Below are positions 1,238-57,251 of a stretch of DNA of 57,558 bases, in pieces. The notes below the pieces were generated by a model that was not told where the DNA came from, ran no database searches, and saw only the letters and a list, made by a program, of their open reading frames with translations. The DNA comes from a virus. The stretch is from IMG/VR virus record IMGVR_UViG_3300035670_009774, positions 1 to 57,558 of that record; one strand, given 5' to 3'. The translations under genes and the position numbers were made by a program. Positions within the stretch are counted from its first letter, which is position 1. Each line of letters starts with the position of its first letter.

Positions 1238-1243
1238 ATATAA

Positions 1244-1753: not shown

Positions 1754-1776
1754 TATATTATATAAAAATAAAAATC

Positions 1777-2205: not shown

Positions 2206-2208
2206 TTT

Positions 2209-2400: not shown

Positions 2401-2407
2401 ATTTTAA

Positions 2408-2439
2408 TTTGGATATTTTAAATATCCTTTATACATTTA
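2408..2439 (+). promoter_or_regulatory. Promoter for folE, Bacteroidota type
   Basis: TTTG at 2408-2411, a 20-bp gap, then TACATTTA at 2432-2439, 21 bp before the folE ATG. It matches the other promoters of this window in spacing and boxes. Confidence 0.7.
2411..2427. repeat. 17-bp palindrome inside the folE promoter spacer
   Basis: GGATATTT-T-AAATATCC has perfect 8-bp arms around a single central T. It fills most of the gap between the -33 and -7 boxes, a position where a bound repressor or an extruded hairpin would block RNA polymerase. It is probably an operator. Confidence 0.6.
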
Positions 2440-2460
2440 AATACAAAATTAATTAGTTAT

Positions 2461-8720: not shown

Positions 8721-8724
<4 letters not shown>
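8425..8724 (+). CDS. Conserved phage protein of unknown function
   Basis: 99 aa, the first gene of the promoter-led chaperonin operon, overlapping groES by 4 bp. The N-terminal half is predicted beta-rich (IIKDPAIEPFHISKDQYCYTV), the C-terminal half helical and charged, ending in a short coiled coil. The PAIEPFHISKDQY segment looks familiar from other phage proteins, but I know of no assigned role. Tight linkage to groES/groEL hints at a substrate or accessory role in folding, which is inference. Confidence 0.75.
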
Positions 8725-10626
<1,902 letters not shown>

Positions 10627-10637
10627 ATTTAGTTATT

Positions 10638-10835
10638 ATGAGAGATGCAGTAGGTCTTATAGGGAAAAAAGTTACAATCAAAGAAAAAACTTATATAATT
10701 CATGATATACATTTTCTCCCTCAACCAGCTCAACCATTAAATTATATTTGGTTTGGATTAAAAAATGGAGATGGAATATTAAATTATCCGTATAATGATC
10801 TACTGCCTTATCTTAAAGAACAAATTAAGTTATGA
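10638..10835 (+). CDS. Small protein of unknown function
   Basis: 65 aa, starting 11 bp after groEL and overlapping the next gene by 4 bp (ATGA). It looks like a small beta-rich domain (GKKVTIKEKTYIIHDIHFLP) followed by YPYNDLLPYLKE. There is no membrane segment, cysteine pair or catalytic motif. Operon position between groEL and the clamp loader is the only functional hint. Confidence 0.65.
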   Translation: MRDAVGLIGKKVTIKEKTYIIHDIHFLPQPAQPLNYIWFGLKNGDGILNYPYNDLLPYLKEQIKL

Positions 10836-11092
10836 AAACAGAAATTCAAGAACAATTAGTTGAATTTGCTCAACGTGTTCCTCCTGGAGATCGTTGGGAA
10901 GTAAATGGAGTTAAAGATATCCAAAAAGGATTAACAGAAGCATTAGAAGCTTATTATGAAGTATCTACTGTAAAACCTAAAGCATTTCGTTTAGATTTGG
11001 TTGTTGGAAAACTTTATGGTATATTCTCGACAGAGGTAGAAATTAAAGAACCTGAAATTAAAAAGTATAACATTTATGGGGAGCTCGAGTAA
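10832..11092 (+). CDS. Small protein of unknown function
   Basis: 86 aa, overlapping the genes on both sides (4 bp upstream, 17 bp with the clamp loader). It is acidic and mostly helical with RVPPGDRWEVNGVKDIQKGL near the N-terminus. No known domain is recognised. Tight translational coupling to the clamp loader suggests co-expression with replication. Confidence 0.65.
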   Translation: MKTEIQEQLVEFAQRVPPGDRWEVNGVKDIQKGLTEALEAYYEVSTVKPKAFRLDLVVGKLYGIFSTEVEIKEPEIKKYNIYGELE

Positions 11093-11999
11093 AAAAGCAC
11101 ATACACTTTGGGTTGAAAAATATCGTAGCTCTAATTTAGATTCATATGTTGGAAATGAAAATATTAAAAAAACTATCCAACAGTATCTAGACCAAAATGA
11201 TATTCAAAATTTTATTTTTTATGGTCCTGCTGGAACTGGTAAAACTACTTTAGCTAAACTTATTGTTAATAATCTTGATTGTGATTATCTCTATATTAAT
11301 GCTAGTGATGAAAGAGGTATTGACACTATTAGAGATAAAGTATCAGGATTTGCTTCAGTAGCATCTTTTAAATCACTTAAAGTTGTTATTTTAGATGAAG
11401 CTGATTTTATTACAATTCAAGGTCAAGCAGCACTCCGAAATGTAATTGAAACATATTCTCGTACAACACGTTTTATTTTAACTTGTAATTTTGTTGAACG
11501 TATTATTGATCCTCTTCAATCACGTTGTCAAGTACTTAAAATTGTTCCTCCTTCAAAACAGGATATTGCTAAACATGTTGCCGGAATATTAGAGAAGGAA
11601 GAAGTATCATATACTATGGATGATATTAAAATCCTAGTAAGCCAATTCTATCCCGATGTACGTAAAATGCTTAATACAGCTCAATTATCAAATCAAGAAG
11701 GCGAGCTTAACATTGATAAATCCGTAATTGTATCAAATAGTTATACAACCCAAGTAGTTAAAGAATTATCTAAACCTAAACCGAGTTTTAATGAAATACG
11801 TCAAATTATTGCAAATGCAAATGTCCAAGATTTTGAGGAACTTTATCGTTTCTTGTATGATAATGCTTCTGCATATGCAGCAGGCAGTGAAGGAATGGTG
11901 GCAATCTATATAAATGAATACTCATATCAAGCTAATTTTCGAATAGATAAAGAAATTAATTGTATGGCATTAATAGCTAGATTAATTGAGTTAAAATGA
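11076..11999 (+). CDS. Clamp loader large subunit, AAA+ ATPase (gp44/RFC-like)
   Basis: 307 aa, close to T4 gp44 (319 aa). It has the RFC-family N-terminal box LWVEKYRSSNLDSYVGNE, Walker A GPAGTGKTT (50-58), Walker B VVILDEAD with D107 and E108, sensor 1 around TCNF, and the SRC arginine-finger motif at 149-151. The C-terminal third is helical, the oligomerisation collar. It opens the sliding clamp (6377-7117) and loads it on primed DNA, with the small subunit at 12434-12856. Confidence 0.94.
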   Translation: MGSSSKKAHTLWVEKYRSSNLDSYVGNENIKKTIQQYLDQNDIQNFIFYGPAGTGKTTLAKLIVNNLDCDYLYINASDERGIDTIRDKVSGFASVASFKSLKVVILDEADFITIQGQAALRNVIETYSRTTRFILTCNFVERIIDPLQSRCQVLKIVPPSKQDIAKHVAGILEKEEVSYTMDDIKILVSQFYPDVRKMLNTAQLSNQEGELNIDKSVIVSNSYTTQVVKELSKPKPSFNEIRQIIANANVQDFEELYRFLYDNASAYAAGSEGMVAIYINEYSYQANFRIDKEINCMALIARLIELK

Positions 12000-21278: not shown

Positions 21279-22177
21279 AAAAAGTATTAATAATTGGTGG
21301 TAACGGATATATCGGTTCTAGATTATATAGTCACCTTGTAAATTTAGGATATAACGTTACTAATATAGATTTAGGATGGTTTGGTATTACCCATACAGAT
21401 GCAATTCAAAAAGACTATAGAGATTTAACAAAAGACGAATTAAGTGAATACACACATATTATTCTTTTAGCAGGTCATTCAAGTGTTTCTATGTGTGGAG
21501 GTGAATTAACATCTTGTTTTAACAATAATGTTTATAATTTTGTAAATTTATTAGATAAGATAGATGATAATCAAACTTTAATTTATTCAAGCACACTTGC
21601 TGTATATGGAAATAATCCTAAATTAGTAACAGAGGAAGATCCAATTAAAAAAGCATTAAACGTTTATGATTATACTAAAATAGCTAGAGAAAATATTGCT
21701 GATCTTTATCCTAATAAAAAATTAGTAGGATTAAGATTTGGTTCTGTATCTGGATTTTCATCTAATTTTAGAAATGAAAATCTATTAAATTCATTAACCA
21801 TGTCTTCAGTAAATAAACTTCCACTTACAATTTCTAATGGAGATGCTTATAGATCTGTTTTAGGTTTAAATGATTTATGTCGTGCTATAGATAAAATCAT
21901 AGAAGTAGATATTATTAAAAACAAAATCTACAATTTAACCTCAGTAAGTGATAAAATTATTAATTTTGGTTACGAAGTTAAACGTTTAACAGATTCTGAA
22001 TTAATAGTTAATGATTCTTTTAAAACAGATTACAGTTTTAATTGCTCGGCTGAGTTGTTTGAAAAAGATTATAATTTTAAGTTTGGAGATACTATAGAAT
22101 CTATATATAATGACATCATTATAAATTACGATAATATATTATTTAATACTAAACGAGAAAAAGTAACATATGAATAG
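21272..22177 (+). CDS. NAD-dependent epimerase/dehydratase (extended SDR)
   Basis: 301 aa from ATG at 21272; a TTG 12 bp upstream is less likely. The Rossmann motif is IIGGNGYIGSRL, and the catalytic pair is Y-D-Y-T-K (about 135-139) with SSTLAVYGNN before it supplying the active-site Ser. Likely a nucleotide-sugar 4-epimerase or 4-reductase. It is coupled to the C-methyltransferase gene (8-bp overlap), so both may act on the same keto-sugar. Confidence 0.82.
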   Translation: MVKKVLIIGGNGYIGSRLYSHLVNLGYNVTNIDLGWFGITHTDAIQKDYRDLTKDELSEYTHIILLAGHSSVSMCGGELTSCFNNNVYNFVNLLDKIDDNQTLIYSSTLAVYGNNPKLVTEEDPIKKALNVYDYTKIARENIADLYPNKKLVGLRFGSVSGFSSNFRNENLLNSLTMSSVNKLPLTISNGDAYRSVLGLNDLCRAIDKIIEVDIIKNKIYNLTSVSDKIINFGYEVKRLTDSELIVNDSFKTDYSFNCSAELFEKDYNFKFGDTIESIYNDIIINYDNILFNTKREKVTYE

Positions 22178-23387
22178 AAATACATGTAGAAGTTGTGAAA
22201 GTACTAACTTAAAACCAGTAGTTTCATTAGGTTTATCACCATTAGCAAATAATTTATTAAATTCTAATACTGAAGAAGATAAATTGTATCCTTTAGAAAT
22301 GGTAATATGTTCTGATTGTCATAATTGTCAACTTTCATATTCTGTTCCTTCTGAGGAAATGTTTGATCATTATTTGTATGTTTCTTCAACAGCACAAAGT
22401 TTTAGAGATCATTTTCAAAAGGCATCATTACAATATATTAAAGAGTTTAATTTAAATGATAATTCATTAGTAATAGATATTGGTTCCAATGATGGTATTG
22501 CTTTAGTACCATTGAAAGAAAAAAATATTAAAGTACTAGGAGTAGAACCTGCAAAAAATATTAGTGCAATTGCCTTAGAAAAAGGAATCCCAACAATTAA
22601 CAATTATTTCACCTCAGAAATTGCGGATACAATTCTTCAAGATTATGGTTATGCAGATGTAGTAACAGCATCTAATGTATTTGCTCATGCAGATGGTTTA
22701 AAAGAAATAGCAAATTCCGCATTTAAAATTTTAAAAAACGAAGGAACTTTTATTGTTGAAGTTCAGTATTTGTTAGATACTATTAATGATTTAACATTCG
22801 ATAACATATATCATGAACACGTTAATTATTGGAGTGTAACGTCTATAGTTAATTTCTTTAATAATCTTGGATACAACGTTGTTAAAGTAGAACATATTGA
22901 TACACACGGTGGTTCAATTAGGGTATATGTTCAAAATCAAGGATATAAAATTGATTCTAGCGTAGGATTATTCCTTAATAAAGAAGATGATTTTGGTTTA
23001 ACAAATTATGATACTTATTTAGGTTTTGCTAAACGTGTAGAACAAATAAAAACTAATGTTTTAAAAAATATTAAAGCATTAAAATATCAAAATTTAACCC
23101 TTGTTGGATATGGATCCCCAGCGAAGGCAACAACTTCCTTAAATTATTTTGGTATTACTTCAAACGAAATATCTTATATTGTTGAAGATAATCCTTTAAA
23201 ACATAGTAAACTCCTCCCAGGAGTAAGAATTCCAATTTATTCTAAAGAAAAAATCTATGAAAACCTTCCAGATGTAATTATTGTTATGGCTTGGAATTTC
23301 TTTGAATATATTAAACAAAACAATCAAGATTTAATAGATAAAGGAGTTAAATTTATTAGTATTAAAGATCTTCAGAATGAAAATTAA
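22170..23387 (+). CDS. Nucleotide-sugar C-methyltransferase (TylC3/Methyltransf_13-14 type)
   Basis: 405 aa. An N-terminal zinc domain has CRSCES and CSDCHNC, the SAM domain has VIDIGSNDGIAL (about 92-103) with VLGVEP, and the active-site segment FDNIYHEHVNYWS (about 211-223) carries the His residues of C-3 methyltransferases. The C-terminal domain (LVGYGSPAKATTSLNYFG) is a second Rossmann-like fold. The order is that of 4-ketosugar C-methyltransferases, which make branched sugars such as mycarose. It suggests the product glycan carries a C-methyl branch. Confidence 0.85.
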   Translation: MNRNTCRSCESTNLKPVVSLGLSPLANNLLNSNTEEDKLYPLEMVICSDCHNCQLSYSVPSEEMFDHYLYVSSTAQSFRDHFQKASLQYIKEFNLNDNSLVIDIGSNDGIALVPLKEKNIKVLGVEPAKNISAIALEKGIPTINNYFTSEIADTILQDYGYADVVTASNVFAHADGLKEIANSAFKILKNEGTFIVEVQYLLDTINDLTFDNIYHEHVNYWSVTSIVNFFNNLGYNVVKVEHIDTHGGSIRVYVQNQGYKIDSSVGLFLNKEDDFGLTNYDTYLGFAKRVEQIKTNVLKNIKALKYQNLTLVGYGSPAKATTSLNYFGITSNEISYIVEDNPLKHSKLLPGVRIPIYSKEKIYENLPDVIIVMAWNFFEYIKQNNQDLIDKGVKFISIKDLQNEN

Positions 23388-24294: not shown

Positions 24295-25178
24295 TGGATA
24301 TAATTGCTAACTTTAGAGATCCTAATACTGATCCTTATTTATTATTTATTAAAGAAAAATATAAAGATAAACCTTTTACTTTTTGGTATGATAAATTACC
24401 TAATAATTTTCATGAATTACAATTAAATCCTTATAATTTTTTATTTCTTCATGAACCCGATGAATTTTTTAGTTTTCACACTAATACTTTAAATTTAAAT
24501 AATTATTTTACAGCTATATTAACTTGGAACGAATCCCTATTAAATCAGATGGATAATGCTGTTAATTTTACTTATAATGGGCAAACTTTAGATTTTGATT
24601 ATATTAATAATATTAAACCTAAAGAATTTAATATTTCTTTTTTGTGTGGAACTAAAAGTTTAGTTGAAGGACATGTTTTGAGACAAAATGTTTATAAATT
24701 AAAAGATAAAATTACTATTCCTAATAAATGGTATTATGTTTTAGAAGATTATGATCCACAAACAAACTCACGCCCAGGTTATGCAGAATATTCAAAAGAT
24801 TTATCCCATATACCTCAAGGAGTAGATCCTGTTGGTTTTGGTAGAAGAGTTTTATTTGATAATTCTATGTTTAATGTGGTCATAGAAAATGTAAATTATA
24901 ACAACTGGTACAATAAAATAGGAGATGCATTTTTATCTAAAACTATTCCAATTTATTGGGGATGCTCAAATATAAGTGAGTTTGGTTATGATGAAAAAGG
25001 TATTGTTAGATTTAAAACAACTGAAGAACTGTTAGATATAATTAATAATTTAACTCCTGAAGTATACAATCAAATGCTTCCTTACATAGAGTATAATTAT
25101 GAATTAGCTAAACAGGATACTTTTGAAAACAATATAAGTCAATTTTTTGATAGTTTTATAGAATTAAACAATTTATGA
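24294..25178 (+). CDS. Glycosyltransferase, GT10 (fucosyltransferase)-like
   Basis: 294 aa. The C-terminal half has the GT10 donor-site pattern: RRVLFDNSMFNVVIENVNYN, then GDAFLSKTIPIYWGCSNISE, equivalent to the alpha-1,3-fucosyltransferase IEN...K..DA...G.IPIYWG block. The family uses GDP-fucose or related GDP-6-deoxy-sugars. The locus encodes GDP-mannose 4,6-dehydratase and SDR reductases, so the GDP-6-deoxysugar made here is a natural donor. Overlaps the next gene by 4 bp. Confidence 0.75.
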   Translation: MDIIANFRDPNTDPYLLFIKEKYKDKPFTFWYDKLPNNFHELQLNPYNFLFLHEPDEFFSFHTNTLNLNNYFTAILTWNESLLNQMDNAVNFTYNGQTLDFDYINNIKPKEFNISFLCGTKSLVEGHVLRQNVYKLKDKITIPNKWYYVLEDYDPQTNSRPGYAEYSKDLSHIPQGVDPVGFGRRVLFDNSMFNVVIENVNYNNWYNKIGDAFLSKTIPIYWGCSNISEFGYDEKGIVRFKTTEELLDIINNLTPEVYNQMLPYIEYNYELAKQDTFENNISQFFDSFIELNNL

Positions 25179-25666
25179 AAATCACAACCCACCCAGACGT
25201 AAAAATTTACACACATGATGTTTATTATGATTTTAGAGGAGAATTATGGACCGTATGGAAACAAGATGAATTTAATCCTCAATTAAATTTTAATCATGAT
25301 AAAGTATCTACTTCTAGAAAACATGTTTTAAGAGGTATTCATGGTGATAGTAAATCTTGGAAATTAATTGAATGTCTATATGGTGAACTTTATTTTGTAG
25401 TAGTTGATAATAGACCTGAATCACCTAATTATAAAAACTGGACTAGTATGATGCTCTCAGATAAAACTAGACAATCAGTTTTATTACCTCCTGGATTTGG
25501 AAACGGATTTTGTGTAATGAGTGATCATTCTATATTTCATTACAAATGGTCTTATCCAGGTGAATATCCTGATGTTAAAGATCAATTTACACTTAAATGG
25601 AACGACCCTGAATTAGGAATTGAATGGCCTATTAACAACCCTATTTTACAGGGACGTGATAAATAA
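25175..25666 (+). CDS. RmlC-like sugar 3,5-epimerase (cupin)
   Basis: 163 aa. Motifs follow dTDP-4-keto-6-deoxyglucose 3,5-epimerase: DFRGELWTVW, STSRKHVLRGIHGDS with the catalytic His, LYGELYFVVVDNR, and LLPPGFGNGFCVM. Shorter than cellular RmlC (about 180 aa). In this GDP-sugar locus it may act on a GDP-4-keto-sugar. Also possible is a 3-epimerase only. Confidence 0.83.
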   Translation: MKITTHPDVKIYTHDVYYDFRGELWTVWKQDEFNPQLNFNHDKVSTSRKHVLRGIHGDSKSWKLIECLYGELYFVVVDNRPESPNYKNWTSMMLSDKTRQSVLLPPGFGNGFCVMSDHSIFHYKWSYPGEYPDVKDQFTLKWNDPELGIEWPINNPILQGRDK

Positions 25667-25698
25667 CTTGGAAACCCAAATAATTTTAATTAAATTAG
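25667..25698 (+). promoter_or_regulatory. Promoter-like site for the TPP enzyme genes
   Basis: CTTG (25667-25670), a 20-bp gap, then TAAATTAG (25691-25698), 5 bp before the ATG at 25703. The spacer TTGGAAACCCAAATAATT is nearly repeated at 33210-33227. Confidence 0.45.
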
Positions 25699-25702
25699 TA
25701 AT

Positions 25703-26329
25703 ATGAATATACCGAAACATTACACCAAAGTTCGAGATGTAAACATTACACCTGAAGAACTTATAGCCTTTGAAGATAGAGTAAAAGATGCTTATGAAGC
25801 TGGACAAATTAAAGGACCTGTCCATTTATCTAAAAATAACGAAGAACAACTAATTAATCTCTTCCAATACATTCACCCAGATGATTGGGTTTTTTCAGCT
25901 TGGAGAAATCACTATCATGCTTTACTACATGGAGTTGATTCTGAAAAATTGTTTGAATGGATTAGTGAAGGTAGAAGTATGGGAACAAATAATTTAAAAC
26001 CTAATTTCTATGCTTCATCTATTGTAGGAGGTATTGTCCCTTTATCTTTAGGTGCTGCTATGGGTTTAAAACGTTCTAATTCTCCTCGTCGTGTTTGGTG
26101 CTTTATTGGAGATATGACAATGGAAACAGGAGTATTCCATGAAGCATATAAATACTCCCAAAACTTTAATCTTCCACTTCAGTTTGTAGTTGAAGATAAT
26201 AATTTAAGTGTTCATACACCAACAGATGTAGCCTGGGGTAAACGAATGGATGCTCCAGAAAATGTAATTTACTATCAATATAAAATGTCTTATCCACACC
26301 ATGGAACAGGCAAATGGGTTAACTTTTAA
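25703..26329 (+). CDS. Thiamine-diphosphate enzyme, alpha (PP-domain) subunit
   Basis: 208 aa. It has the TPP pyrophosphate/metal motif GDMTMETG (from G136) through N166-N167, i.e. GDx about 27 residues before NN, and ASSIVGGIVPLSLGAAMGLK before it, as in E1-alpha and the N-terminal half of transketolase. It is about 100 residues shorter than dehydrogenase E1-alpha. With the beta-like protein encoded 4 bp downstream it should form one active site that transfers or releases a two-carbon unit. Its place beside the ColD-like enzyme suggests a sugar-branching reaction. Confidence 0.82.
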   Translation: MNIPKHYTKVRDVNITPEELIAFEDRVKDAYEAGQIKGPVHLSKNNEEQLINLFQYIHPDDWVFSAWRNHYHALLHGVDSEKLFEWISEGRSMGTNNLKPNFYASSIVGGIVPLSLGAAMGLKRSNSPRRVWCFIGDMTMETGVFHEAYKYSQNFNLPLQFVVEDNNLSVHTPTDVAWGKRMDAPENVIYYQYKMSYPHHGTGKWVNF

Positions 26330-26333
26330 TAAT

Positions 26334-26864
26334 ATGAAATATAAAGACGAATTAATTAGAGCAATGGAATATCTGGCAACCAAACCAGATACCGTATTTA
26401 TGGGACAAGCTATTGGAATGAGTGGTCATGCCATTTCAAATACAGTAGCTACAGTTTCCCAAGATAAACGAGTTGAACTTCCTGTATTTGAAGAAACACA
26501 AATGGGAATAGCTACAGGAATGGCTATGACTGGTTGGGTACCTGTTACAGCATATCCTCGTTTTGACTTCTTTATTTTATCACTTAATCAATTAGTTAAC
26601 CATCTTGATAAAATGAAAGATATGTCTAAAGGTGAAATGAATCCTAAAGTTATTATTCGTGTAGCTGTAGGTTCTAAAGTACCTTTTAGTGCTGGTCCTC
26701 AACATACTCAAAACCATACCGAAGCAATGCGTAAAATGCTTACCGAAGTAGAAGTAATTGAATTAATAGAACCAGAAGAAATTTTCCCAGCATTTGAAAA
26801 AGCTTATAATAGTGACAAATCATTTTTAATTATTGAACATAGCGAATTTTATGGCAGCAAATAA
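26334..26864 (+). CDS. Thiamine-diphosphate enzyme, beta (pyrimidine-domain) subunit
   Basis: 176 aa from ATG at 26334; a start 33 bp earlier would overlap the alpha gene. It is a Transket_pyr domain: VELPVFEETQMGIATGMAMTG carries the Glu that activates the TPP aminopyrimidine, and PRFDFFILSLNQLVNHLDKM follows. The C-terminal transketolase domain found in E1-beta is absent, so this is a minimal subunit. It overlaps the aminotransferase-fold gene by 14 bp, tying the three into one unit. Confidence 0.8.
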   Translation: MKYKDELIRAMEYLATKPDTVFMGQAIGMSGHAISNTVATVSQDKRVELPVFEETQMGIATGMAMTGWVPVTAYPRFDFFILSLNQLVNHLDKMKDMSKGEMNPKVIIRVAVGSKVPFSAGPQHTQNHTEAMRKMLTEVEVIELIEPEEIFPAFEKAYNSDKSFLIIEHSEFYGSK

Positions 26865-28023
26865 TTATACTTGGCCTCTCATTAATGATAACATTACTAA
26901 AAGTGATAGAGAAATTTTAGCGGATTTTTGTATAAATGGTGAACGTTTTACAAATGGTCCTAAAGTAAAAGAATTTGAAAAAATTTGGTCAGAATGGCTA
27001 GGAGTTAAACATTCCGTAATGGTTAATTCAGGAGCATCTGCTAATTTTATTTCCATAGCAATGGTTAAAGAGTTAGTTGGTATTGGAGAAGTAATCGTTC
27101 CCCCAATTGGTTGGGTTTCAGATATATCTTCAGTAGCTCAGTTAGGTATGACTCCTGTATTTGTGGATGTTTCAATAAATGATTTTAATATCACTTTTGA
27201 AAATATAAAAAATGCTGTTACCCCAAACACAAAAGCTATTGTATTAGTTCATACATTAGGTTTTAATGGTATTAGTGATGAATTAATCCAATTTGCTAAA
27301 GAACGTAATATTATCTTAATTGAAGATTGTTGTGAAGCTCATGGAGCTACTTATAAAGATAAAAAAGTCGGTTCATTTGGTGATATTTCATTATTTTCAT
27401 TTTATTTTGGACATCATATTACTACTATTGAGGGTGGTACGGTTTGTGTAAATGATGATAAATTATATGATTTAGCTAAGTTGTTCCGTTCGCATGGCAT
27501 GACTAGAGAGGCATCACAAGAATTACAACGTGATTATCAATTAATGTGTCCGGATTTGAATCCATTGTTTACATTCGCTGTAGCTGGGTTTAATATGCGA
27601 AGTAGCGAATTAAATGCGGTACTAGGTATTGAGCAAATGAAACGCATTGATAACAATGTAAAACGTAGAACCGAAAATTTACATATTTGGTTAAATAACC
27701 TAGATTCTACCAAATTTATTACAGGTTTTAAAACATCCGGAAGTAGTAATTTTGCTTTACCTCTTGTAATGCAAGGAAATACTCGTGATAAACTTAAAGA
27801 TGTTTGTTCTATCTTAGAAAATGAAGGTGTAGAATATCGTTTAGGTACAGCTGGTGGTGGTAACCAAGCTCGTCAACCTTATTTGAAAAAATTTAACTAT
27901 AGAATAAATGGAACATTAGCTCAAGCTGATTATATTCATGATAATGCTCTTTATATTGGTAATCATACTGATTTAAATGAAGAACAAATTGTTAATCTTT
28001 GTAAAAAAATAAATAATGTTTAA
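26851..28023 (+). CDS. ColD/E1-type PLP-dependent sugar 3-dehydrase (DegT fold)
   Basis: 390 aa from ATG at 26851 (a TTG at 26833 is less likely). The DegT/DnrJ/EryC1 fold is clear: MVNSGASANFISIAM, IEDCCEAHGATYKDKKVGSFGD. The residue that is normally the PLP-linking lysine in SFYxxK is H188 in SFYFGHHITTIEGG. This His is the hallmark of GDP-4-keto-6-deoxymannose 3-dehydratase (ColD) and CDP-sugar E1 (RfbH), which remove the C-3 hydroxyl instead of transaminating. GDP-mannose 4,6-dehydratase at 30614 would provide the GDP-4-keto-6-deoxymannose substrate. Expected product: a 3,6-dideoxy-4-keto sugar. Confidence 0.87.
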   Translation: MAANNYTWPLINDNITKSDREILADFCINGERFTNGPKVKEFEKIWSEWLGVKHSVMVNSGASANFISIAMVKELVGIGEVIVPPIGWVSDISSVAQLGMTPVFVDVSINDFNITFENIKNAVTPNTKAIVLVHTLGFNGISDELIQFAKERNIILIEDCCEAHGATYKDKKVGSFGDISLFSFYFGHHITTIEGGTVCVNDDKLYDLAKLFRSHGMTREASQELQRDYQLMCPDLNPLFTFAVAGFNMRSSELNAVLGIEQMKRIDNNVKRRTENLHIWLNNLDSTKFITGFKTSGSSNFALPLVMQGNTRDKLKDVCSILENEGVEYRLGTAGGGNQARQPYLKKFNYRINGTLAQADYIHDNALYIGNHTDLNEEQIVNLCKKINNV

Positions 28024-28987
28024 AAATCAAAAAGTTTTAGTTACTGGTGGTGGTGGAATGATAGGACGTTCATTAGTAAAATTCCTATTAGAAAAAGGAG
28101 CACTAGTTACAATAGCCGATTTAACAGTCCCTACAGATCTTCCTAAAGGTGTTGAATTTATTAAAGTAGATTTACGTTACTTTGATCAATGTGAAAATAT
28201 CTGTAATGGAATGGATTATGTATTTAATCTTGTTGGCGTTAAAGGATCTCCTAAAATGTGCGCTGAACAACCTGCTGACTTTATGGTTCCTATGCTCCAA
28301 TTTAATACTAATATGATGGAAGCAGCACGTCGAGCTAATGTAAAATGGTATCTTTATACGAGTTCAGTAGGTGTTTATGCTCCTGCTGAAGTGTTTGTAG
28401 AAGATAGTGTATGGTCAACAGTTCCATCACCAAATGATCGTTTTGCTGGTTGGGCTAAGCGTATGGGAGAATTACAGGCCGAAGCATATTCAATTCAATA
28501 TGGTTGGGATAAAGTATCAATTGTAAGACCAGCTAATGTATATGGTGATTATGATAATTTTAATCCTGCTAACGCAATGGTAGTACCTTCACTTATTCGT
28601 AAAGCACAAGAAAATGATGTACTTGAAGTTTGGGGTGATGGTTCTACAATTCGTGATTTTATTCATGCTGATGATGTTGCTTTAGGTATGTTATTTACTG
28701 TTGAAAATTCAATCACCCAACCAATCAATTTAGGTTCAGGTAAAGGATATTCAATTAAAGAAGTAGTAGATATGGTTGTTAAACACTCAGGTAAAAATCT
28801 TGAAGTAAAATGGTTAACAGATAAACCAGGTGGGGATGCTATTCGTTTATTTGATATGACACGAGCCAAATCTTACGGATTTGATATTTCAGTTTCTTTA
28901 GATGAAGGAATTAAAAATACTACAGAATGGTTCTTAAATAATAAAGAAATTTTAGATAAACGTTATAACGCTTTTGTACATCATTAA
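28016..28987 (+). CDS. NAD-dependent epimerase/reductase (extended SDR) with altered catalytic site
   Basis: 323 aa. The cofactor motif is VTGGGGMIGRSLVKFL, TSSVGVYAP supplies the active-site Ser region, and RFAGWAKRMGELQAEAY is where YxxxK belongs. The Lys is kept, but the position four residues before it is Ala, with a Phe one residue further. Fold and C-terminal RDFIHADDVALGM are typical of GDP-sugar epimerase/reductases. It may use another base or act mainly as a reductase. Confidence 0.8.
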   Translation: MFKNQKVLVTGGGGMIGRSLVKFLLEKGALVTIADLTVPTDLPKGVEFIKVDLRYFDQCENICNGMDYVFNLVGVKGSPKMCAEQPADFMVPMLQFNTNMMEAARRANVKWYLYTSSVGVYAPAEVFVEDSVWSTVPSPNDRFAGWAKRMGELQAEAYSIQYGWDKVSIVRPANVYGDYDNFNPANAMVVPSLIRKAQENDVLEVWGDGSTIRDFIHADDVALGMLFTVENSITQPINLGSGKGYSIKEVVDMVVKHSGKNLEVKWLTDKPGGDAIRLFDMTRAKSYGFDISVSLDEGIKNTTEWFLNNKEILDKRYNAFVHH

Positions 28988-29673
28988 TGGCACGATTTTT
29001 AGTAACTGGAGTTAATAGTGGGTTGGGTAAATATTTGTATGAAAATTTACCTAACTCATTAGGATTAAATAGAGACAATTTTAATCTTATTAAAAACGAA
29101 GAGTATGATACTATAATCCATTGTGCTTTTAATAAAGAAAATATTATTACTGACTATGAAAAGTATTTAGATGATAATATTTTTCTTACTCAACGTCTTA
29201 AAAAATTAAATTATAAAAATTTTGTATACATTTCAACAGTAGATGTTTATCAAGAAAATCCTTCAATGTATTCTCATTTTAAAAGATTTTCGGAAACATT
29301 ATTAGATGAAAATGATTTAATTTTAAGATGTCCTATGATGTTGGGAAATACTATGAAACCTAATCATGCTACAAAATTAATATCTAATATTGATTCGTTA
29401 GGATTATCAAAAGACTCTACATTTAATTATATTTTAATGGATGATTTAATTGAGTTTTTTAGTAGTAAAGATTATAAACAACATAACGGAATTATCGACT
29501 TTGTATCTAATGGTTTGGTAAGATTAGAAGAAGTAAAAAAATATTTTAACTCAACTACAAAATTGGGTGAATATACTTACCAAAATAATGTGGAATATCC
29601 AAACCCTATATTTAAATTAGATGAAAAGTATAATAAGTCATCATTTGACAAACTAAAACAATATTTTAAATGA
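28987..29673 (+). CDS. Short SDR nucleotide-sugar reductase-like protein
   Basis: 228 aa. FLVTGVNSGLGKYLYENL is a Rossmann start, YISTVDVYQENPSMYSHFK keeps Ser and the Y-x-x-x-K pair. The length is about 60-80 residues below typical SDR sugar enzymes. It resembles RmlD-type 4-ketoreductases in layout. TAATG overlap with the preceding gene and 4-bp overlap with the next show a single unit. A role in reducing the branched 4-keto product is inference. Confidence 0.72.
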   Translation: MARFLVTGVNSGLGKYLYENLPNSLGLNRDNFNLIKNEEYDTIIHCAFNKENIITDYEKYLDDNIFLTQRLKKLNYKNFVYISTVDVYQENPSMYSHFKRFSETLLDENDLILRCPMMLGNTMKPNHATKLISNIDSLGLSKDSTFNYILMDDLIEFFSSKDYKQHNGIIDFVSNGLVRLEEVKKYFNSTTKLGEYTYQNNVEYPNPIFKLDEKYNKSSFDKLKQYFK

Positions 29674-30617
29674 AACGTATATTAATTTGTGGAGCAACCG
29701 GTTTTATTGGTAGGAACTTGTTGGATTTTTATCACCAAAAAGGTAATTATAATATTAGAGCAGTTCATTTCAATCGCCCTGCAATCGAAGGATATTATGG
29801 AGTTGAATGGATTAAAGCTGATTTGCGTAATCCTGAAACAGTAAAACAGGTGTTACAAGATGTAGATATTGTTTTACAATTTGCAGCAACAACCTCAGGA
29901 GCTAAGGATATTATGACTCGTCCTTATATTCATGTTACAGATAATGCTGTGATGAATAGTTTATTGTTACGTGAATGTTATGAACAAAGTATCGAACATT
30001 TTGTATTCCCTAGTTGTACAGTAATGTATCAACCCTCTTCATGTGCTTTAGCAGAATGTGATTTTAATGGAGATGAAGAATTATTCCCAACATATTTTGG
30101 TGTAGGTAATACTAAAGTTTACATTGAAAAGATGTGTGAATTTTTTTCACGTTTAGGAAAAACCAAACATACTGTAATGAGACATTCAAATATGTATGGA
30201 CCTTATGATAAGTATGATTTAGAACGTTCTCATATGTTTGGAGCTACTATTACAAAAGTAATGACATCTGAAGATGGTAAAGTTAATGTTTGGGGAACTG
30301 GTGAAGAATCTAGAGATTTACTTTATGTAGAAGATTTAGTCAATTTTGTTGATGCTGCTATTGAAAAACAAACCACTCCTTATGAATTATTTAATGTTGG
30401 TGTCGGTAAAGCTATTAGTGTTAAAGATGTAGTCAATAAAATTATTACCCACTCAGGACGTGATTTAGAAGTAGTTCATGACTTATCTAAACCAACAATC
30501 CCTACTTCATTATTTCTAGATTGTACTAAAGCTAAAGAAATGTTAGCTTGGGAAGCTAAAACAGATTTAGATACGGGAATTATTAAAACATTAAATTGGT
30601 ATAAAGAAAACATATGA
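29670..30617 (+). CDS. GDP-L-fucose synthase-like SDR
   Basis: 315 aa. ILICGATGFIGRNLLDF is the NADPH site; FPSCTVMYQ, then TYFGVGNTKVYIEKMCEF takes the place of the usual Ser and YxxxK segments, and RHSNMYGPYDKYDLERSHM is the substrate loop seen in GDP-fucose synthase (Fcl). LLYVEDLVNFVDAAI completes the family pattern. Fcl enzymes epimerise and reduce GDP-4-keto-6-deoxymannose. The Tyr spacing is unusual, so the exact reaction is open. Confidence 0.78.
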   Translation: MKRILICGATGFIGRNLLDFYHQKGNYNIRAVHFNRPAIEGYYGVEWIKADLRNPETVKQVLQDVDIVLQFAATTSGAKDIMTRPYIHVTDNAVMNSLLLRECYEQSIEHFVFPSCTVMYQPSSCALAECDFNGDEELFPTYFGVGNTKVYIEKMCEFFSRLGKTKHTVMRHSNMYGPYDKYDLERSHMFGATITKVMTSEDGKVNVWGTGEESRDLLYVEDLVNFVDAAIEKQTTPYELFNVGVGKAISVKDVVNKIITHSGRDLEVVHDLSKPTIPTSLFLDCTKAKEMLAWEAKTDLDTGIIKTLNWYKENI

Positions 30618-31624
30618 TTAACGCTTTTATTACAGGTATTACAGGAATGGTCGGTTCACATTTAACCGACTTTCTTTTAGAAAACACAGATTGGAAAATT
30701 TATGGTTTAGCTAGATGGAATGATTCCCTAGAAAATATAGAACACTTATCAGAAGAAATTAATAAAAAAGAACGTATTGAACTTATTTATGGGGATTTAA
30801 ATGACTTAGCTTCTCTTATTACAGCTGTTAATAAATCAAAACCAGACTATATATTTCATTTAGCGGCTCAATCTTATCCACAAACAAGTTTTGATGCGCC
30901 TATAGAAACGCTTCAAACTAATATATTGGGAACGGCTAATTTATTAGAGGCATTGCGTAAATCCAATTATAGAAACGCTATAACGCATGTGTGTGCATCA
31001 AGTGAAGTATTTGGTCGTGTTCCTAAAGAAAAACTTCCTATTAATGAAGAATGTTCTTTCCACCCAGCGTCACCTTATGCTATTTCTAAAGTAGGTACTG
31101 ATTTGGTAGGTCGTTATTATGCTGAAGCTTATGGAATGACTATTATGACTACTCGTATGTTTACACATACTGGTCCTAGAAGAGGTGATGTGTTTTCGGA
31201 ATCAACATTTGCTAAACAGATAGCTATGATTGAAGCAGGTTTACAAGAACCTAAAATTTATGTAGGTAATTTAGATTCACTTAGAACTTATGCTGATGTA
31301 AGAGATGCTGTAAAAGCATATTATATGTTAGTTACTAATAATCCAACATCCGGTGAATATTATAATATTGGTGGTACTTATACTTGTAAAATTGAAGAGA
31401 TGCTTAATTATCTAATTAATCAATCAACAGTCAAAAACATTGAAATCATAACAGACCCAGAACGTCTAAGACCTATCGATGCTGATTTACAAATCCCCGA
31501 TACTACTAAATTTCAAAACCATACTGGTTGGAAACCAGAATATACCTTTGAACAAACTATGAATGATCTCTTGCAATATTGGAGAGACAGAGTTAATTCA
31601 GGACGTAAATTTTTAAGACGATGA
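30614..31624 (+). CDS. gmd: GDP-mannose 4,6-dehydratase
   Basis: 336 aa. TGITGMVGSHLTDFLL is the cofactor site. The GMD-type signatures follow: YGDLNDLASL, HLAAQSYPQTSFDAP, CASSEVFGRVP, SPYAISKVGTDL with catalytic Y and K, and RMFTHTGPRRGDVFSES. It converts GDP-D-mannose to GDP-4-keto-6-deoxy-D-mannose, the entry point for fucose, rhamnose, perosamine and colitose. It therefore probably feeds the ColD-like enzyme and SDRs of this locus. Confidence 0.88.
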   Translation: MINAFITGITGMVGSHLTDFLLENTDWKIYGLARWNDSLENIEHLSEEINKKERIELIYGDLNDLASLITAVNKSKPDYIFHLAAQSYPQTSFDAPIETLQTNILGTANLLEALRKSNYRNAITHVCASSEVFGRVPKEKLPINEECSFHPASPYAISKVGTDLVGRYYAEAYGMTIMTTRMFTHTGPRRGDVFSESTFAKQIAMIEAGLQEPKIYVGNLDSLRTYADVRDAVKAYYMLVTNNPTSGEYYNIGGTYTCKIEEMLNYLINQSTVKNIEIITDPERLRPIDADLQIPDTTKFQNHTGWKPEYTFEQTMNDLLQYWRDRVNSGRKFLRR

Positions 31625-32352
31625 AAATATTAGTTATAGGAGATAGTTGTGTAGATATCTTTAGATATGGTAAAGTAGAAAGAATAGCCCCTGAAGCTCC
31701 AGTCCCTATTATAGTACCTGAAAGAGAAACCTCCAATCCAGGAATGGCAGGAAATGTAGTAGCTAATTTAAAAGCATTAGGAGCTGAAGTAGATTTTATT
31801 ACTAATAAAACTGAAATTCGTAAAATAAGATATGTTTGTTCTAAATACAATCATTTACTTTTACGAGTAGATGAAAATGATACTTGTGAAAAAATAGATA
31901 TAGTTCCCTTTAAAACAGAAATTTATAATGCTGTTATCATTTCAGATTACTGTAAAGGATTTTTAACTGAAGAAGATATAGAAAACATTTCCAAAAGTTT
32001 TGATTGTCCTATATTTTTGGATACTAAAAAAATATTAGGTAATTGGGCTCATAATATTGATTTTATTAAAATTAACTATCATGAGTATGAAAGGAATAAA
32101 GAAATATTAAAAAATGATCTTATTCTTAACAATAAAACAATTGTAACTAGAGGTAAATATGGTTGTGATTACCAAACTAAAAATTACCCTACAGTTGATG
32201 TCCCTGTAAAAGACGTTTCAGGAGCAGGTGATACCTTCCTTTCAGGTTTAGTAATAGAATATGCTCGTTCTAAAGATATAGATAAAGCAATTCAATTTGC
32301 TCAAGAATGTACAACAATAGTAATTCAAAAATCAGGAGTATCAACAATATGA
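31621..32352 (+). CDS. PfkB-family sugar kinase (HldE/RfaE kinase-like)
   Basis: 243 aa, shorter than HldE kinase domains (about 310). GDSCVDIFRYGKVERIAPEAP and GMAGNVVANLKALGAEV match the N-terminal substrate-binding lid of heptose-7-phosphate kinase, and DVSGAGDTFLSGLV holds the catalytic Asp of PfkB enzymes. The missing residues lie in the middle. A D-glycero-heptose phosphate or another sugar phosphate may be its substrate. Overlaps the next gene by 4 bp. Confidence 0.8.
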   Translation: MKILVIGDSCVDIFRYGKVERIAPEAPVPIIVPERETSNPGMAGNVVANLKALGAEVDFITNKTEIRKIRYVCSKYNHLLLRVDENDTCEKIDIVPFKTEIYNAVIISDYCKGFLTEEDIENISKSFDCPIFLDTKKILGNWAHNIDFIKINYHEYERNKEILKNDLILNNKTIVTRGKYGCDYQTKNYPTVDVPVKDVSGAGDTFLSGLVIEYARSKDIDKAIQFAQECTTIVIQKSGVSTI

Positions 32353-40636: not shown

Positions 40637-42295
40637 ATGAAGTTAATAAAAAATTCTCCATATAAGATATTAAGTATTATAGGTGGTCTTCACTCATGTG
40701 GTTTAACTTATTATGAAAATGGAGAAATAAAAGTTGTTCTAGAGGAAGAACGATTAGTTAGAACTAAACCTTACGTTGATTTACATAATGATTTTTTTAG
40801 ATATCCTTTAGAATCTCTTAGAGAACTTATTTTTAAATATAATGTTAATTTAGAATCTATAGATTATTTTACTAGTTTTTATGAATATGAAACTATAAAA
40901 ATAATGTTAAATGAAACTTGTAACTATTCTTTACCTCCTCACAAATATATTAAAACAGAGCACCACGAAACACACTGTGCTCTAGCTTATTACCTTTCAG
41001 GATTTCAAGAAGATACATTAGTAATAGCAATTGATGGCAGTGGAGAAGAACATTCAGCTAAATATTATTTAGGTACTAACGGTGATTTAAAATACATTGA
41101 TGGAATTGGTATTGATAGGCATTCTATAGGAATGTATTATTGTGCTCTTACGGAATTATTAGGTTTTAAACGTTTAAAAGATGAAGGTAAAATAGTTGGT
41201 TTGGCGGGTCATGGAGAATATATTCCTGAATTTTATAATGTTTTTAAAAAGGTTTTATTATTAGAAGATGGTTTAAAAACTAAAAAATCAACATTTGAAA
41301 ATCAACAAGATTTAGCAGGTGGTGGAGTTTATCAAGAATTATTTTCAAACTTTTTTAATTTTATGGGAAGTAATATCTCTTGGAGATATGAAAACCAACG
41401 TAAAAACATAGCTTATTGTGGTCAATTAGTTCTTGAAGAAACAATCCTCGAAATATTACACACACTTCATATAAAATATCCTCATGTTAAAAAATTAGCC
41501 TTATCCGGAGGTGTATTTGCTAATATAAAAGTAAATAAAAAAATAAATGAACTTAAATGGGTTGATGAAGTATTTATTACTCCCCCTATGGGTGATGAAG
41601 GTTTACCTTTAGGTTCATTATTACTTGTATTAAAAAAATTATATCCCGAATTTAAACCAATTCGTTTGGAAAATGTTTTTTTAGGATTAGAATATACAAA
41701 TGAAGAAGTAGATAATGCTGCTAAGTGTATAATGGAGGAGTATATTAAAATTCCTTATAATGTTGATTATGTGGGTGAATTACTTAAATCTAAAAAAATA
41801 TTAGGTTTATTCAATGGTCGATTTGAACACGGACCTAGAGCATTAGGTAATCGAACAATTACTTGTGATCCAACACATCTCGAAACTTATGATATAATTA
41901 ATGGTAAACTTCAACGTAATGATTTTATGCCATTCGCTCCTGCAGTTTTAGATGAAGATGCTAATCGTTTATTTAAAGTAGATAAATCTCAATATACAGC
42001 TGAGTTTATGACTATGTTATATGATACTAGGGATGAATTTAAAGATATGTTACCCACAGTAACACACCCTGTTGATAAAACAGCTCGTATTCAAATTGTA
42101 ACAGAACAATCAAACCCATTCTTTTATAATATCCTAAAAAAATATAAAGAATTAACAGGTATTGGATGTTTAGTAAATACCTCATTTAATGTTCATAACG
42201 AACCAATTGTAAATAAACCTGAAGAAGCATTTATGCATCTCAAAAATGGAATAATAGATTTTTTAGTAACCCCTTATGGAATTTATTCAAAATGA
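40637..42295 (+). CDS. Carbamoyltransferase (NodU/CmcH/TobZ family)
   Basis: 552 aa. An N-terminal Kae1-like domain has HHETHCALAYYLSGF and IAIDGSGEEHSA, and KLALSGGVFANIKVNKKI is the ATP-site segment. The C-terminal YrdC-like domain has GRFEHGPRALGNRTI and GCLVNTSFNVHNEPIV. The enzyme makes carbamoyl-AMP from carbamoyl phosphate and ATP and transfers the carbamoyl group to a sugar hydroxyl. With the oxygenase and FkbM genes downstream it decorates the same glycan, by inference. Confidence 0.9.
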   Translation: MKLIKNSPYKILSIIGGLHSCGLTYYENGEIKVVLEEERLVRTKPYVDLHNDFFRYPLESLRELIFKYNVNLESIDYFTSFYEYETIKIMLNETCNYSLPPHKYIKTEHHETHCALAYYLSGFQEDTLVIAIDGSGEEHSAKYYLGTNGDLKYIDGIGIDRHSIGMYYCALTELLGFKRLKDEGKIVGLAGHGEYIPEFYNVFKKVLLLEDGLKTKKSTFENQQDLAGGGVYQELFSNFFNFMGSNISWRYENQRKNIAYCGQLVLEETILEILHTLHIKYPHVKKLALSGGVFANIKVNKKINELKWVDEVFITPPMGDEGLPLGSLLLVLKKLYPEFKPIRLENVFLGLEYTNEEVDNAAKCIMEEYIKIPYNVDYVGELLKSKKILGLFNGRFEHGPRALGNRTITCDPTHLETYDIINGKLQRNDFMPFAPAVLDEDANRLFKVDKSQYTAEFMTMLYDTRDEFKDMLPTVTHPVDKTARIQIVTEQSNPFFYNILKKYKELTGIGCLVNTSFNVHNEPIVNKPEEAFMHLKNGIIDFLVTPYGIYSK

Positions 42296-42489
42296 CAAGA
42301 GAACAACGACTTGAAGAAATGTTACATCATGCTCATGAAAGAGGATATTATGAGCAAGTAATTAAAAAAGCAAAAGAACTAGAAATATATAATCCCCGAA
42401 TGGAATTTTACGAACGCTGGGAAAAAGCCTATCACATAAGTAAATCAGAATTTTATGATATTAAATTTACAGAACAACTCCCACGCTAA
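42292..42489 (+). CDS. Small helical protein of unknown function
   Basis: 65 aa, ATGA overlap with the carbamoyltransferase. Helical and charged: EQRLEEMLHHAHERGYYEQV, then KKAKELEIYNPRMEFYERWE. It overlaps the next gene by 35 bp. No family known. Confidence 0.6.
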   Translation: MTREQRLEEMLHHAHERGYYEQVIKKAKELEIYNPRMEFYERWEKAYHISKSEFYDIKFTEQLPR

Positions 42490-42907
42490 TATTTCTTTTA
42501 CTAATTTAGTTAAAGTATCTATTAGAGGTGAACATAGCTATAATGTATCTTGGTATAAAGATGAAATATTTATAGGTCAAATGGAACTTCATTCGGGTAC
42601 TTGGGGTGGTTTCGAAAATGAATTAGGAAATTGGAGATTAGAATTTTGGCAAAATGAAATTTTAGTTAATTCAATTACATTTAATTTAGAAAATAAAAAC
42701 GTATTGTTTATCTATACTCTCCACACAGAAAAAGGTAAATTACCTAATATTAATTCAATTATTGAATATATCAGTGATGTTAAAAATAGATATAATTTTA
42801 TTCCCTATGTTTATTTTAAAGGAAGTGAAAAATATAACATTCCTTTTAATACTTTAAAGTTAAATGATTCTGTAAATTTTGACCTTATATTAGAAAAAAA
42901 TGGATAA
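42455..42907 (+). CDS. Beta-domain protein, possibly a truncated glycosyltransferase
   Basis: 150 aa. Predicted strands with VSWYKDEIFIGQMELHSGTW and NWRLEFWQNEILVNSITFNL, then NKNVLFIYTLHTEKGKL. The layout recalls the N-terminal beta domain of large phage/bacterial glycosyltransferases of the O-heptosyltransferase type, whose catalytic domain would start next. Here the chain stops after about 60 more residues. Either a remnant or a stand-alone binding domain. Overlaps the oxygenase gene by 8 bp. Confidence 0.5.
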   Translation: MILNLQNNSHANISFTNLVKVSIRGEHSYNVSWYKDEIFIGQMELHSGTWGGFENELGNWRLEFWQNEILVNSITFNLENKNVLFIYTLHTEKGKLPNINSIIEYISDVKNRYNFIPYVYFKGSEKYNIPFNTLKLNDSVNFDLILEKNG

Positions 42908-43562
42908 TCTAATTAAAATTTATAATAACTCCCTAAACCCAGAGATTTGTCAGTTTATTATTGATAAATTTGAATCATCCCAAAATCTAATAGAAGGAAT
43001 GTCAGGTGGTGGGGTAAAGAAATCAGTTAAAGCATCTACTGATTTGATGATTCATAGTGAACGTCATACCGATAAAGATTGGGATTATATATATAATTAT
43101 TTGATGGAAAATTTATTATCCCATTTAGTAGATTATCTTGAACATAATGATTTTCCTATTTTATCAAGTAATTTCTCCAGTAAATCTAGTATTGTTAGAA
43201 CAGCTCAATCATGTTTTATGAGTAGTAACAATAATATTCCTCATATCCAAATGCAAAGATATATTGGGGGTGAAGGTTATTACGCTTGGCACCATGAAAA
43301 TGAAGGTGGTAGTACTTCTAAACGAGAATTATTTTTTATATATTATTTAAATACTCTTAATACTGGGGGAACAGAGTTTAAATATAATCCTCAAATAGTC
43401 TATCCAGAAACTGGGAAACTTATAATGGCTCCGGCATATTGGACTCACAAACATAGAGGAAATGCTCCTGGTGAAGGGAATACAAAATATATCTTAACAG
43501 GTTGGATTGAAAGTAAACCTAATACAATTAGTGAAGAATTTGAACAAGATTATTTAATATGA
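42900..43562 (+). CDS. 2-oxoglutarate/Fe(II) oxygenase (prolyl 4-hydroxylase-like)
   Basis: 220 aa. Iron ligands are H131 and E133 in YAWHHENEG and a distal His in WTHKHRG (H183 or H185). FIYYLNTLNTGGTEFKYNPQ and GKLIMAPAYWTH are the usual DSBH strands, and KYILTGWIE ends the domain. The first metal pair is H-x-E rather than H-x-D, which I recall from phage members. It hydroxylates a protein, sugar or base using 2-oxoglutarate and O2. Its operon suggests a glycan or glycoprotein target. Confidence 0.83.
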   Translation: MDNLIKIYNNSLNPEICQFIIDKFESSQNLIEGMSGGGVKKSVKASTDLMIHSERHTDKDWDYIYNYLMENLLSHLVDYLEHNDFPILSSNFSSKSSIVRTAQSCFMSSNNNIPHIQMQRYIGGEGYYAWHHENEGGSTSKRELFFIYYLNTLNTGGTEFKYNPQIVYPETGKLIMAPAYWTHKHRGNAPGEGNTKYILTGWIESKPNTISEEFEQDYLI

Positions 43563-44509
43563 ATCTAAATATAAATTTTACCCCGGATAATATTGTTATT
43601 TGGAATCATGAACCCGAAAATATTGAATTAGAAGGAATCTATATAGATATTGAAACAAATTTAATAATTTTTAAAAATATATTATATTTACCACCTTATG
43701 ATGGTTATGTAAATATTTCTTTAGATCACGATAATTTTAGGTATTGTAAAGGATTTGAGGTAAAATTATATTATAAAGGTGAATTAGTTAAAACAGCTAC
43801 TCATATATATGATAATAAATTAGATAGTCGTTTATATTTTTATCGAAGTGATAATGCCTCAAACTATGGTTCTTGGTTAAGTTTATTTCATCAAAATGAA
43901 TATGGTAATAAAATTAATATAAGTCCAAACGATATTGTATACGATTTAGGAGCTAATATTGGAGCTTTTACAAAATGGGCAACTTTTTATAACCCAAAAT
44001 CGATATATAGTTTTGAACCAACTCCATCTTTATATAAAGATTTATTAAAAACATTTGAACATAATTCTAATGTTAATGTTTTAGATTTAGCAATAACTAA
44101 TACTAATAAATTAATTAACTTTTATTCTTTTACTGAGGATACAAGTAATACTTTAATAGAAACTCCTATAGAAAACATAATTCCTGAAAAATTTAATGGG
44201 ATTATTGAGGTACAAGGAATTAATTTAGAAGAGTATGTAAAAAAACATAATTTACCTTTACCTACATTATTAAAAATAGATATTGAAGGTAGTGAATATG
44301 ATTTTTTTGAAAATACAAGTAATGATTTTTTTATTAATATTTCACAAATGATTATAGAATTTCATCATAATAGTAGTGGGATTGAAAAATTAGATAAAAT
44401 TAATACAATTATAAAAAGATTTTTAAATTTAGGTTATAAAATTCAAGTAAAAGAAGGTGATTCAATAGATAATTATATGTTTACTATTCTTATTACTAAA
44501 TTTGGTTAA
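43559..44509 (+). CDS. FkbM-family methyltransferase with N-terminal beta domain
   Basis: 316 aa. The first about 115 residues are a beta-rich extension (IYIDIETNLIIFKNILYLPP). The methyltransferase domain follows with VYDLGANIGAFTKWA (about 124-138), YSFEPTPSLY and the FkbM signature LLKIDIEGSEYDFF (about 238-251). O-methylation of a sugar is likely. The same family is encoded at 13463-14122 without the extension, so this copy may recognise a different acceptor. Confidence 0.86.
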   Translation: MNLNINFTPDNIVIWNHEPENIELEGIYIDIETNLIIFKNILYLPPYDGYVNISLDHDNFRYCKGFEVKLYYKGELVKTATHIYDNKLDSRLYFYRSDNASNYGSWLSLFHQNEYGNKINISPNDIVYDLGANIGAFTKWATFYNPKSIYSFEPTPSLYKDLLKTFEHNSNVNVLDLAITNTNKLINFYSFTEDTSNTLIETPIENIIPEKFNGIIEVQGINLEEYVKKHNLPLPTLLKIDIEGSEYDFFENTSNDFFINISQMIIEFHHNSSGIEKLDKINTIIKRFLNLGYKIQVKEGDSIDNYMFTILITKFG

Positions 44510-57178: not shown

Positions 57179-57251
57179 AGTCAGGTAGCTCAATGGTGAG
57201 CGGGTCCGTAAAAGGAGTTGCCGTATGCAGGTTCGAATCCTGTCCTGACTA
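57179..57251 (+). tRNA. tRNA-like gene, identity uncertain
   Basis: Acceptor AGTCAGG (57179-57185) pairs fully with CCTGACT (57244-57250), discriminator A57251. D stem GCTC/GAGC (57188-57191, 57198-57201) has a 6-nt loop, and the T arm GCAGG-TTCGAAT-CCTGT is canonical. The anticodon arm is poor: 57202-57226 gives only TCC/GGA around GTAAAA. No CCA is encoded. It may be a degenerate Tyr(GTA)-like tRNA, or part of a longer RNA. Confidence 0.5.

Follow-up and report, generated by a model that had tools for sequence, protein, structure and literature searches.

We propose that a gene block at positions 25175–32352 of the marine bacteriophage record IMGVR_UViG_3300035670_009774, a fragment of 57,558 bases (the window, by which we mean the whole stretch of DNA analysed), makes a carbon-branched 3,6-dideoxy sugar carried on GDP, with GDP-D-glycero-D-manno-heptose as its most likely precursor, a reading that we regard as evenly poised between right and wrong. 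In order, the block encodes a cupin epimerase, the two halves of a thiamine diphosphate (TPP) enzyme (TPPa and TPPb), a ColD-type 3-dehydrase, three short-chain dehydrogenases/reductases (SDRs), a 4,6-dehydratase and a PfkB kinase (Table 1). In the proposed pathway the 4,6-dehydratase (30614) would form GDP-6-deoxy-4-keto-heptose, from which the ColD-type enzyme (26851), using pyridoxamine phosphate, would remove O3 to give GDP-3,6-dideoxy-4-keto-heptose. The cupin epimerase (25175) would perhaps invert C5, and the E1-like TPP pair (25703, 26334) would attach two carbons to the ketone, with pyruvate as the probable donor and C4 as the probable site. One or more of the SDRs would reduce the new acetyl group or the leftover ketone, and a glycosyltransferase would afterwards put the sugar onto a glycan.

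By analogy, the first three of these steps are known chemistry for homologous enzymes of Campylobacter jejuni, in which a 4,6-dehydratase and a pyridoxal phosphate (PLP)-dependent C3-dehydratase convert GDP-D-glycero-D-manno-heptose to GDP-3,6-dideoxy-4-keto-heptose before C5 is epimerized and C4 reduced (PMC10440746). We infer the branching step, its donor and its branch point from gene linkage and analogy. Two-carbon branching by a TPP enzyme is plausible in the light of yersiniose synthesis, where such an enzyme places a two-carbon branch on a CDP-linked 3,6-dideoxy-4-keto sugar (PMC12247030), and of the pairs resembling pyruvate dehydrogenase (PDH) E1 that are credited with adding such branches to the keto sugars of antibiotics (PMC12247030, PMC4753412, PMC10338323). 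Linking the C. jejuni route, the yersiniose TPP step and the E1-like antibiotic-sugar pairs gives, in our view, the best explanation of the block.

All of the genes named in an earlier note on this DNA are present where it placed them, including a 4,6-dehydratase-like SDR at 30614–31624 and the ColD-like gene. Counted from the ATG at 26851, residue 188 of the ColD-like product is the first histidine of FGHHITTIEGG, in register with His188 of Escherichia coli ColD, a member of the same GDP-sugar 3-dehydrase family. This histidine replaces the PLP-anchoring lysine, as is characteristic of ColD-type 3-dehydrases, and FGHH is kept by all of the viral relatives that have this stretch; the PDB sequence 3b8x has asparagine at the aligned position. 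The register and the family matches support the prediction, already made in that note, that the enzyme would remove O3 and, with the 4,6-dehydratase, yield a GDP-3,6-dideoxy-4-keto sugar.

From TPPb onward, neighbouring genes overlap by 1–14 nt. TPPb and the dehydrase gene, which begins at ATG 26851, share 14 nt, with similar crowding in most relatives, and TPPb is separated from TPPa by 4 nt in the window and 3–12 nt in relatives, so that the gene overlaps said to join the TPP enzyme to the unit hold for TPPb and the dehydrase but not for its own two halves. Since TPPb of the relatives begins 3–12 nt after TPPa, we place its start in the window at ATG 26334; an apparent TPPa/TPPb overlap through ATG 26301 is not real, as this ATG lies upstream of the relatives' start. 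The gene-set range given previously, 26334–31624, leaves out TPPa (25703–26329), and of the SDRs and the RmlC-like epimerase described as following, the SDRs do follow but the epimerase (25175–25666) precedes. A single frameshifted TPP gene was ruled out: the split is kept in 20 of 20 related loci and in bacteria, and a true fusion occurs in another lineage.

A TPPa scan of viral contigs (IMG/VR) yielded 20 loci that are 63–98% identical. (Labels L002–L139 denote TPP-gene loci gathered from viral contigs, phages and cellular genomes.) The dehydrase follows TPPb in 19 of the 20, with one gene between them in L015. The order TPPa–TPPb–ColD–SDR–(SDR)–(SDR)–dehydratase is seen in 16 of 19 loci, some of them only 78–79% identical in TPPa, the other three ending at a contig edge before the dehydratase; the SDR of 28987–29673 is absent from some related loci. 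What lies upstream of the block differs between loci, so that the block stands out as a unit. Across L002–L021 the block has two versions, with either the SDR of 29670–30617 or a different one (∼319 residues) before the dehydratase, and Phe123 or His123 of the epimerase is partly in step with them. The dehydrase of L014 (10145–11297) is split into two overlapping open reading frames (ORFs) by a frameshift or an assembly error. In a 735-kb uncultured phage (L028, 6397–8615) another gene separates TPPb and TPPa, and two C-methyltransferase-like genes flank them.

The tie between the two-part TPP enzyme and a ColD-like dehydrase, proposed from the window, recurs well beyond it. Among cellular genomes the TPP pair was found in 30 of 334 Omnitrophota, four of 162 Pelagibacterales, two of 388 Verrucomicrobiota and one of 345 in the class of L090. 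It adjoins a His-type dehydrase in Omnitrophota (many of whose loci have one nearby), Verrucomicrobiota, Pelagibacterales, Acidimicrobiales and Azospirillum, and the direct order TPPa–TPPb–dehydrase occurs in Verrucomicrobiota, Acidimicrobiales and Pelagibacterales (L088, L090, L134 and L135). A plasmid of Azospirillum lipoferum (L139, 5983–9321) carries full-length E1-alpha and E1-beta genes and then a ColD-like protein with FSHHISTMEGG; a HAD-IIIA protein is also encoded near these genes. Where a TPP locus has a DegT-family neighbour with a readable anchor residue, the dehydrase is of the His type in 44 loci, and lysine is found in two DegT proteins (L070 and a second copy in L123). Many of these 44 loci are closely related and are not independent cases; it is the separate lineages that carry the argument, and adjacency in several of them indicates that the pairing is not due to chance. 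In L088 the TPP genes have a B12-binding radical SAM protein nearby (10277–11845); L077 has a similar-looking protein (4574–6127), and ORFs of similar size stand near the TPP genes of Omnitrophota loci (L103–L135).

TPPa and TPPb form a TPP enzyme of the E1/transketolase class, whose donor is not readable from sequence. Judged from family matches, the enzyme is a stripped-down E1-alpha/E1-beta pair of the PDH E1 type. In NCBIfam, TPPa and TPPb match PDH E1 alpha and beta, respectively, far under the curated cut-offs; the alpha half scores 89 bits with TIGR03182 (2-oxoacid dehydrogenase E1), while its transketolase match has an E value of 3e-4. TPPa, which is shorter than PDH E1-alpha, retains the GD...N motif and RH, and a glutamate in TPPb aligns with the conserved E1-beta glutamate. 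These E1 homologues stand in a sugar cluster without E2 or E3. The E1_dh and Transket_pyr matches (Pfam, NCBIfam) rule out an acetolactate-synthase identity of the YerE type, and the analogy with YerE drawn in the earlier note is probably wrong at the level of the enzyme. PHROG 34187, which includes the cyanophage `transketolase central region' protein (S-SM2, P-TIM68), is a fused alpha+beta form of the same TPP family, with an alpha half 42–45% identical. This form, of 400 residues, occurs in S-SM2, P-TIM68 and many IMG/VR contigs, and no E2 or E3 was found among its annotated neighbours. Its predicted structure (pLDDT 79, pTM 0.85) retrieves transketolases over the full length in Foldseek (TMq ∼0.6) and E1-beta over part; the model mainly confirms the TPP PP–PYR fold and cannot tell an E1 function from that of a transketolase.

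As to the starting sugar, we judge heptose roughly twice as probable as mannose from sequence resemblance, and GDP-mannose, the default substrate of the earlier note, was downgraded as probably wrong because both the dehydratase and the epimerase are nearer to the Campylobacter GDP-heptose enzymes. The window dehydratase is 54% identical to the Campylobacter GDP-heptose 4,6-dehydratase (PDB entry 7us5) versus 36–38% to GDP-mannose 4,6-dehydratases (GMDs), and scores 375 bits with 7us5, 196 with GDP-6-deoxy-lyxo-hexulose reductase (2pk3) and 157 with E. coli GMD (1db3; 38%). Of the diagnostic columns, 66 place it with 7us5 and apart from both GMDs, and 17 do the reverse. Canonical GMDs stand apart in the tree with full support; the window, Pelagibacter, 7us5 and reductase branches have no firm order among themselves. 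The epimerase scores 158–159 bits with the C. jejuni GDP-heptose epimerases (7ang, 7an4 and 7m14) versus 91 with the best RmlC (1dzr), and retains the catalytic residues His67, Lys74, Tyr134 and Asp173. Ile56 and His123 of GDP-heptose epimerase are said to fit the seventh carbon (PMC7949155); His123 is kept by 13 of the 20 phage epimerases compared and by both Pelagibacter ones. In Synechococcus phage Bellamy the dehydratase, which is 54% identical, is encoded near an HddA-like kinase (279 bits) and an HddC-like protein, L091 has an HddC–GmhB-like fusion beside its TPP genes, and cellular TPP loci have HddA-like kinases and HddC-like nucleotidyltransferases in their surroundings. A `phosphoheptose isomerase' of P-TIM68 (L023, 13474–13812) was rejected as GmhA, being unsupported by NCBIfam and matching only the EcbF–BcbF capsule phosphatase (26 bits).

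Several observations weigh against the pathway as proposed, some bearing on its substrate and others on the TPP step. The window epimerase has Ser56 and Phe123, as in hexose-specific RmlC, rather than Ile56 and His123, and Ser56 is found in the epimerases of all the phage relatives. Searches of the window and 19 related viral records, all 20 of them fragments, gave no match to HddA or GmhA, and the HddA and HddC matches all fall under the NCBI curated cut-offs, so that they denote homologues and not proven heptose enzymes. The hexose-like residues and the lack of HddA and GmhA matches favour the same branching chemistry on GDP-mannose, giving a GDP-linked yersiniose-like octose, and GDP-mannose is widely available in hosts. 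We consider this version distinctly unlikely in view of the dehydratase identities, the separate clade of canonical GMDs, the GDP-heptose family match of the epimerase and the HddA/HddC-like neighbours in relatives. On the side of the TPP enzyme, Pfam finds only Transket_pyr in TPPb and no transketolase C-terminal domain. In addition, fused-TPP loci (cyanophages, IMG/VR contigs) have a His-type dehydrase in one of 50, within the stretch examined, and a PfkB kinase in 44 of 50, which implies that the TPP enzyme needs no 3-deoxy sugar. The kinase is usually accompanied by a zinc alcohol dehydrogenase, and the group of alcohol dehydrogenase, fused TPP enzyme and PfkB kinase recurs in cyanophages and many IMG/VR contigs (L022, L023 and L029–L076).

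The TPP family thus either branches several keto sugars, some of them produced by the alcohol dehydrogenase, or acts earlier, for instance in making a sugar phosphate. On the latter view, which we think rather unlikely, the enzyme would be a transketolase- or DXS-like ligase making a heptulose or related sugar phosphate for the PfkB kinase, and the pathway would end in a 3,6-dideoxy-heptose with no branch, like that of C. jejuni HS:5. The HldA-like character of the PfkB kinases beside the fused genes, the HddA-like kinases adjoining TPP genes in many bacterial loci and the full-length Foldseek matches to transketolases all favour such a role, and none of the enzyme types of the HS:5 route is missing from the window, which has a 4,6-dehydratase, C3-dehydratase, cupin epimerase and GDP-fucose-synthase-like reductase (PMC10440746). 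Against it, the alpha half resembles E1 and hardly transketolase, a Pelagibacter locus (L086) already has a separate split transketolase-like pair adjoining the TPP pair, and both the TPPb/dehydrase overlap and the His-type partner in several lineages would be left unexplained. We find it very improbable that the block juxtaposes two unrelated sugar pathways, with a TPP pair that serves another product and has only the operon in common with the 3,6-dideoxy-sugar genes. Phage glycan loci are mosaic in nature, L019 has TPPa, TPPb and the dehydratase without the dehydrase, and the extra gene of L015 interrupts the pairing; however, the TPP pair adjoins a His-type dehydrase in viruses and in at least five cellular lineages.

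Several known systems lie close to the proposed branched-heptose pathway. The C. jejuni HS:5/HS:11 route (Ghosh, 2023; PMC10440746) shares the heptose-type 4,6-dehydratase, PLP-dependent C3-dehydratase, cupin epimerase and reductase types but has no TPP enzyme, and its cluster includes hddA, gmhA and hddC, the first two of which were not found in the fragmentary viral records. Yersiniose A synthesis likewise has a 3-dehydrase followed by a TPP enzyme (YerE) through which a 3,6-dideoxy-4-keto sugar gains two carbons; YerE, however, acts on a CDP-sugar and is a single-chain flavoprotein of the acetolactate-synthase type, whereas the window enzyme is an E1-type pair. AviB1/AviB2, Pau11/Pau12 and KbDH-alpha/beta (the alphaKADH2 group) are also PDH-E1-like alpha/beta pairs, AviB and Pau being likened here by description; they serve antibiotic sugars. 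The viral subunits differ from these pairs in having no E1-beta C-terminal domain and, in one lineage of viruses, in being fused. The E. coli colitose pathway, despite the shared dehydrase family, starts from GDP-mannose and has no TPP step, and the fused cyanophage protein lies mostly without a nearby His-type dehydrase.

A wider idea, which we hold tentatively and would sooner doubt than trust, is that a separate family of minimal E1-like TPP enzymes, which lack the C-terminal domain and are either split or fused, serves specifically to put two-carbon branches on heptose nucleotide sugars for surface glycans, a 3,6-dideoxy-heptose acceptor giving a nine-carbon branched sugar in marine phages and uncultured bacteria. 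Literature searches on phage-made branched sugars returned nothing relevant. If correct, the proposed pathway would bring together two known chemistries, the making of 3,6-dideoxy-heptoses and the TPP-driven branching of sugars, and place them in phages, and would offer the TPP family labelled only `transketolase central region' or unknown (PHROG 34187) its first function open to testing. It would also extend E1-type branching from antibiotic sugars to surface glycans, a review having listed the E1 type for the former and the YerE type for lipopolysaccharide sugars (PMC12247030), and would suggest a specific means for phages to change the cell or virion surface by a chemistry not yet described in them.

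Table 1. Features of the window, with predicted products and the matches on which they rest
Feature	Position	Strand	Match or remark
RmlC-fold cupin epimerase	25175..25666	+	closest to C. jejuni GDP-heptose C3/C5 epimerases
TPPa, E1-alpha-like half of TPP enzyme, 208 aa	25703..26329	+	PF00676 (E1_dh) 54.7 bits
TPPb, E1-beta-like half (transketolase pyrimidine domain), 176 aa	26334..26864	+	PF02779 (Transket_pyr) 41.7 bits
ColD-type GDP-4-keto-6-deoxy-sugar 3-dehydrase, His188	26851..28023	+	best PDB match ColD 2gms, 201 bits
SDR_B, GDP-fucose-synthase-like reductase/epimerase	28016..28987	+	NF047922 149 bits (under cut-off); best PDB 1bsv 114 bits
SDR_C, short SDR-like protein	28987..29673	+	GxxxGxG and YxxxK visible; no Pfam match
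SDR_D, GDP-fucose-synthase-like SDR	29670..30617	+	most relatives carry a different SDR instead
GDP-sugar 4,6-dehydratase, GDP-D-glycero-D-manno-heptose type	30614..31624	+	PF16363 268 bits; PDB 7us5 375 bits
PfkB kinase resembling heptose-7-phosphate kinase HldA, shortened, 243 aa	31621..32352	+	TIGR02198 138 bits (under cut-off); PF00294
NDP-sugar C-methyltransferase	22170..23387	+	PF08421 and PF08484 (zinc-binding and C-terminal domains)
GroES-like and GroEL, phage-encoded	8721-10626

The C-methyltransferase lies outside the core block and is variable, being matched in the related loci L002, L008 and L009; it is possibly a second carbon-branching enzyme. Nearly all of the genes listed for the window are on the plus strand. 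The polymerase is of the PolB kind and is most similar (35%) to that of Microcystis phage Mel-JY01. The GroEL shares 62% identity with its counterpart in Flavobacterium phage immuto, and the host may possibly belong to the Bacteroidota. At 66–3156 radical SAM (QueE-like), thioesterase-like, phosphoribosyltransferase-like and GTP-cyclohydrolase-like genes stand in a row, and immuto has a similar accessory gene set. A second glycan-modification group at 40637–44509 consists of a carbamoyltransferase, a 2-oxoglutarate–Fe(II) oxygenase and an FkbM methyltransferase. The sole tRNA gene (57179–57252) is called tRNA-Phe with the anticodon AAA, the usual tRNA-Phe anticodon being GAA.

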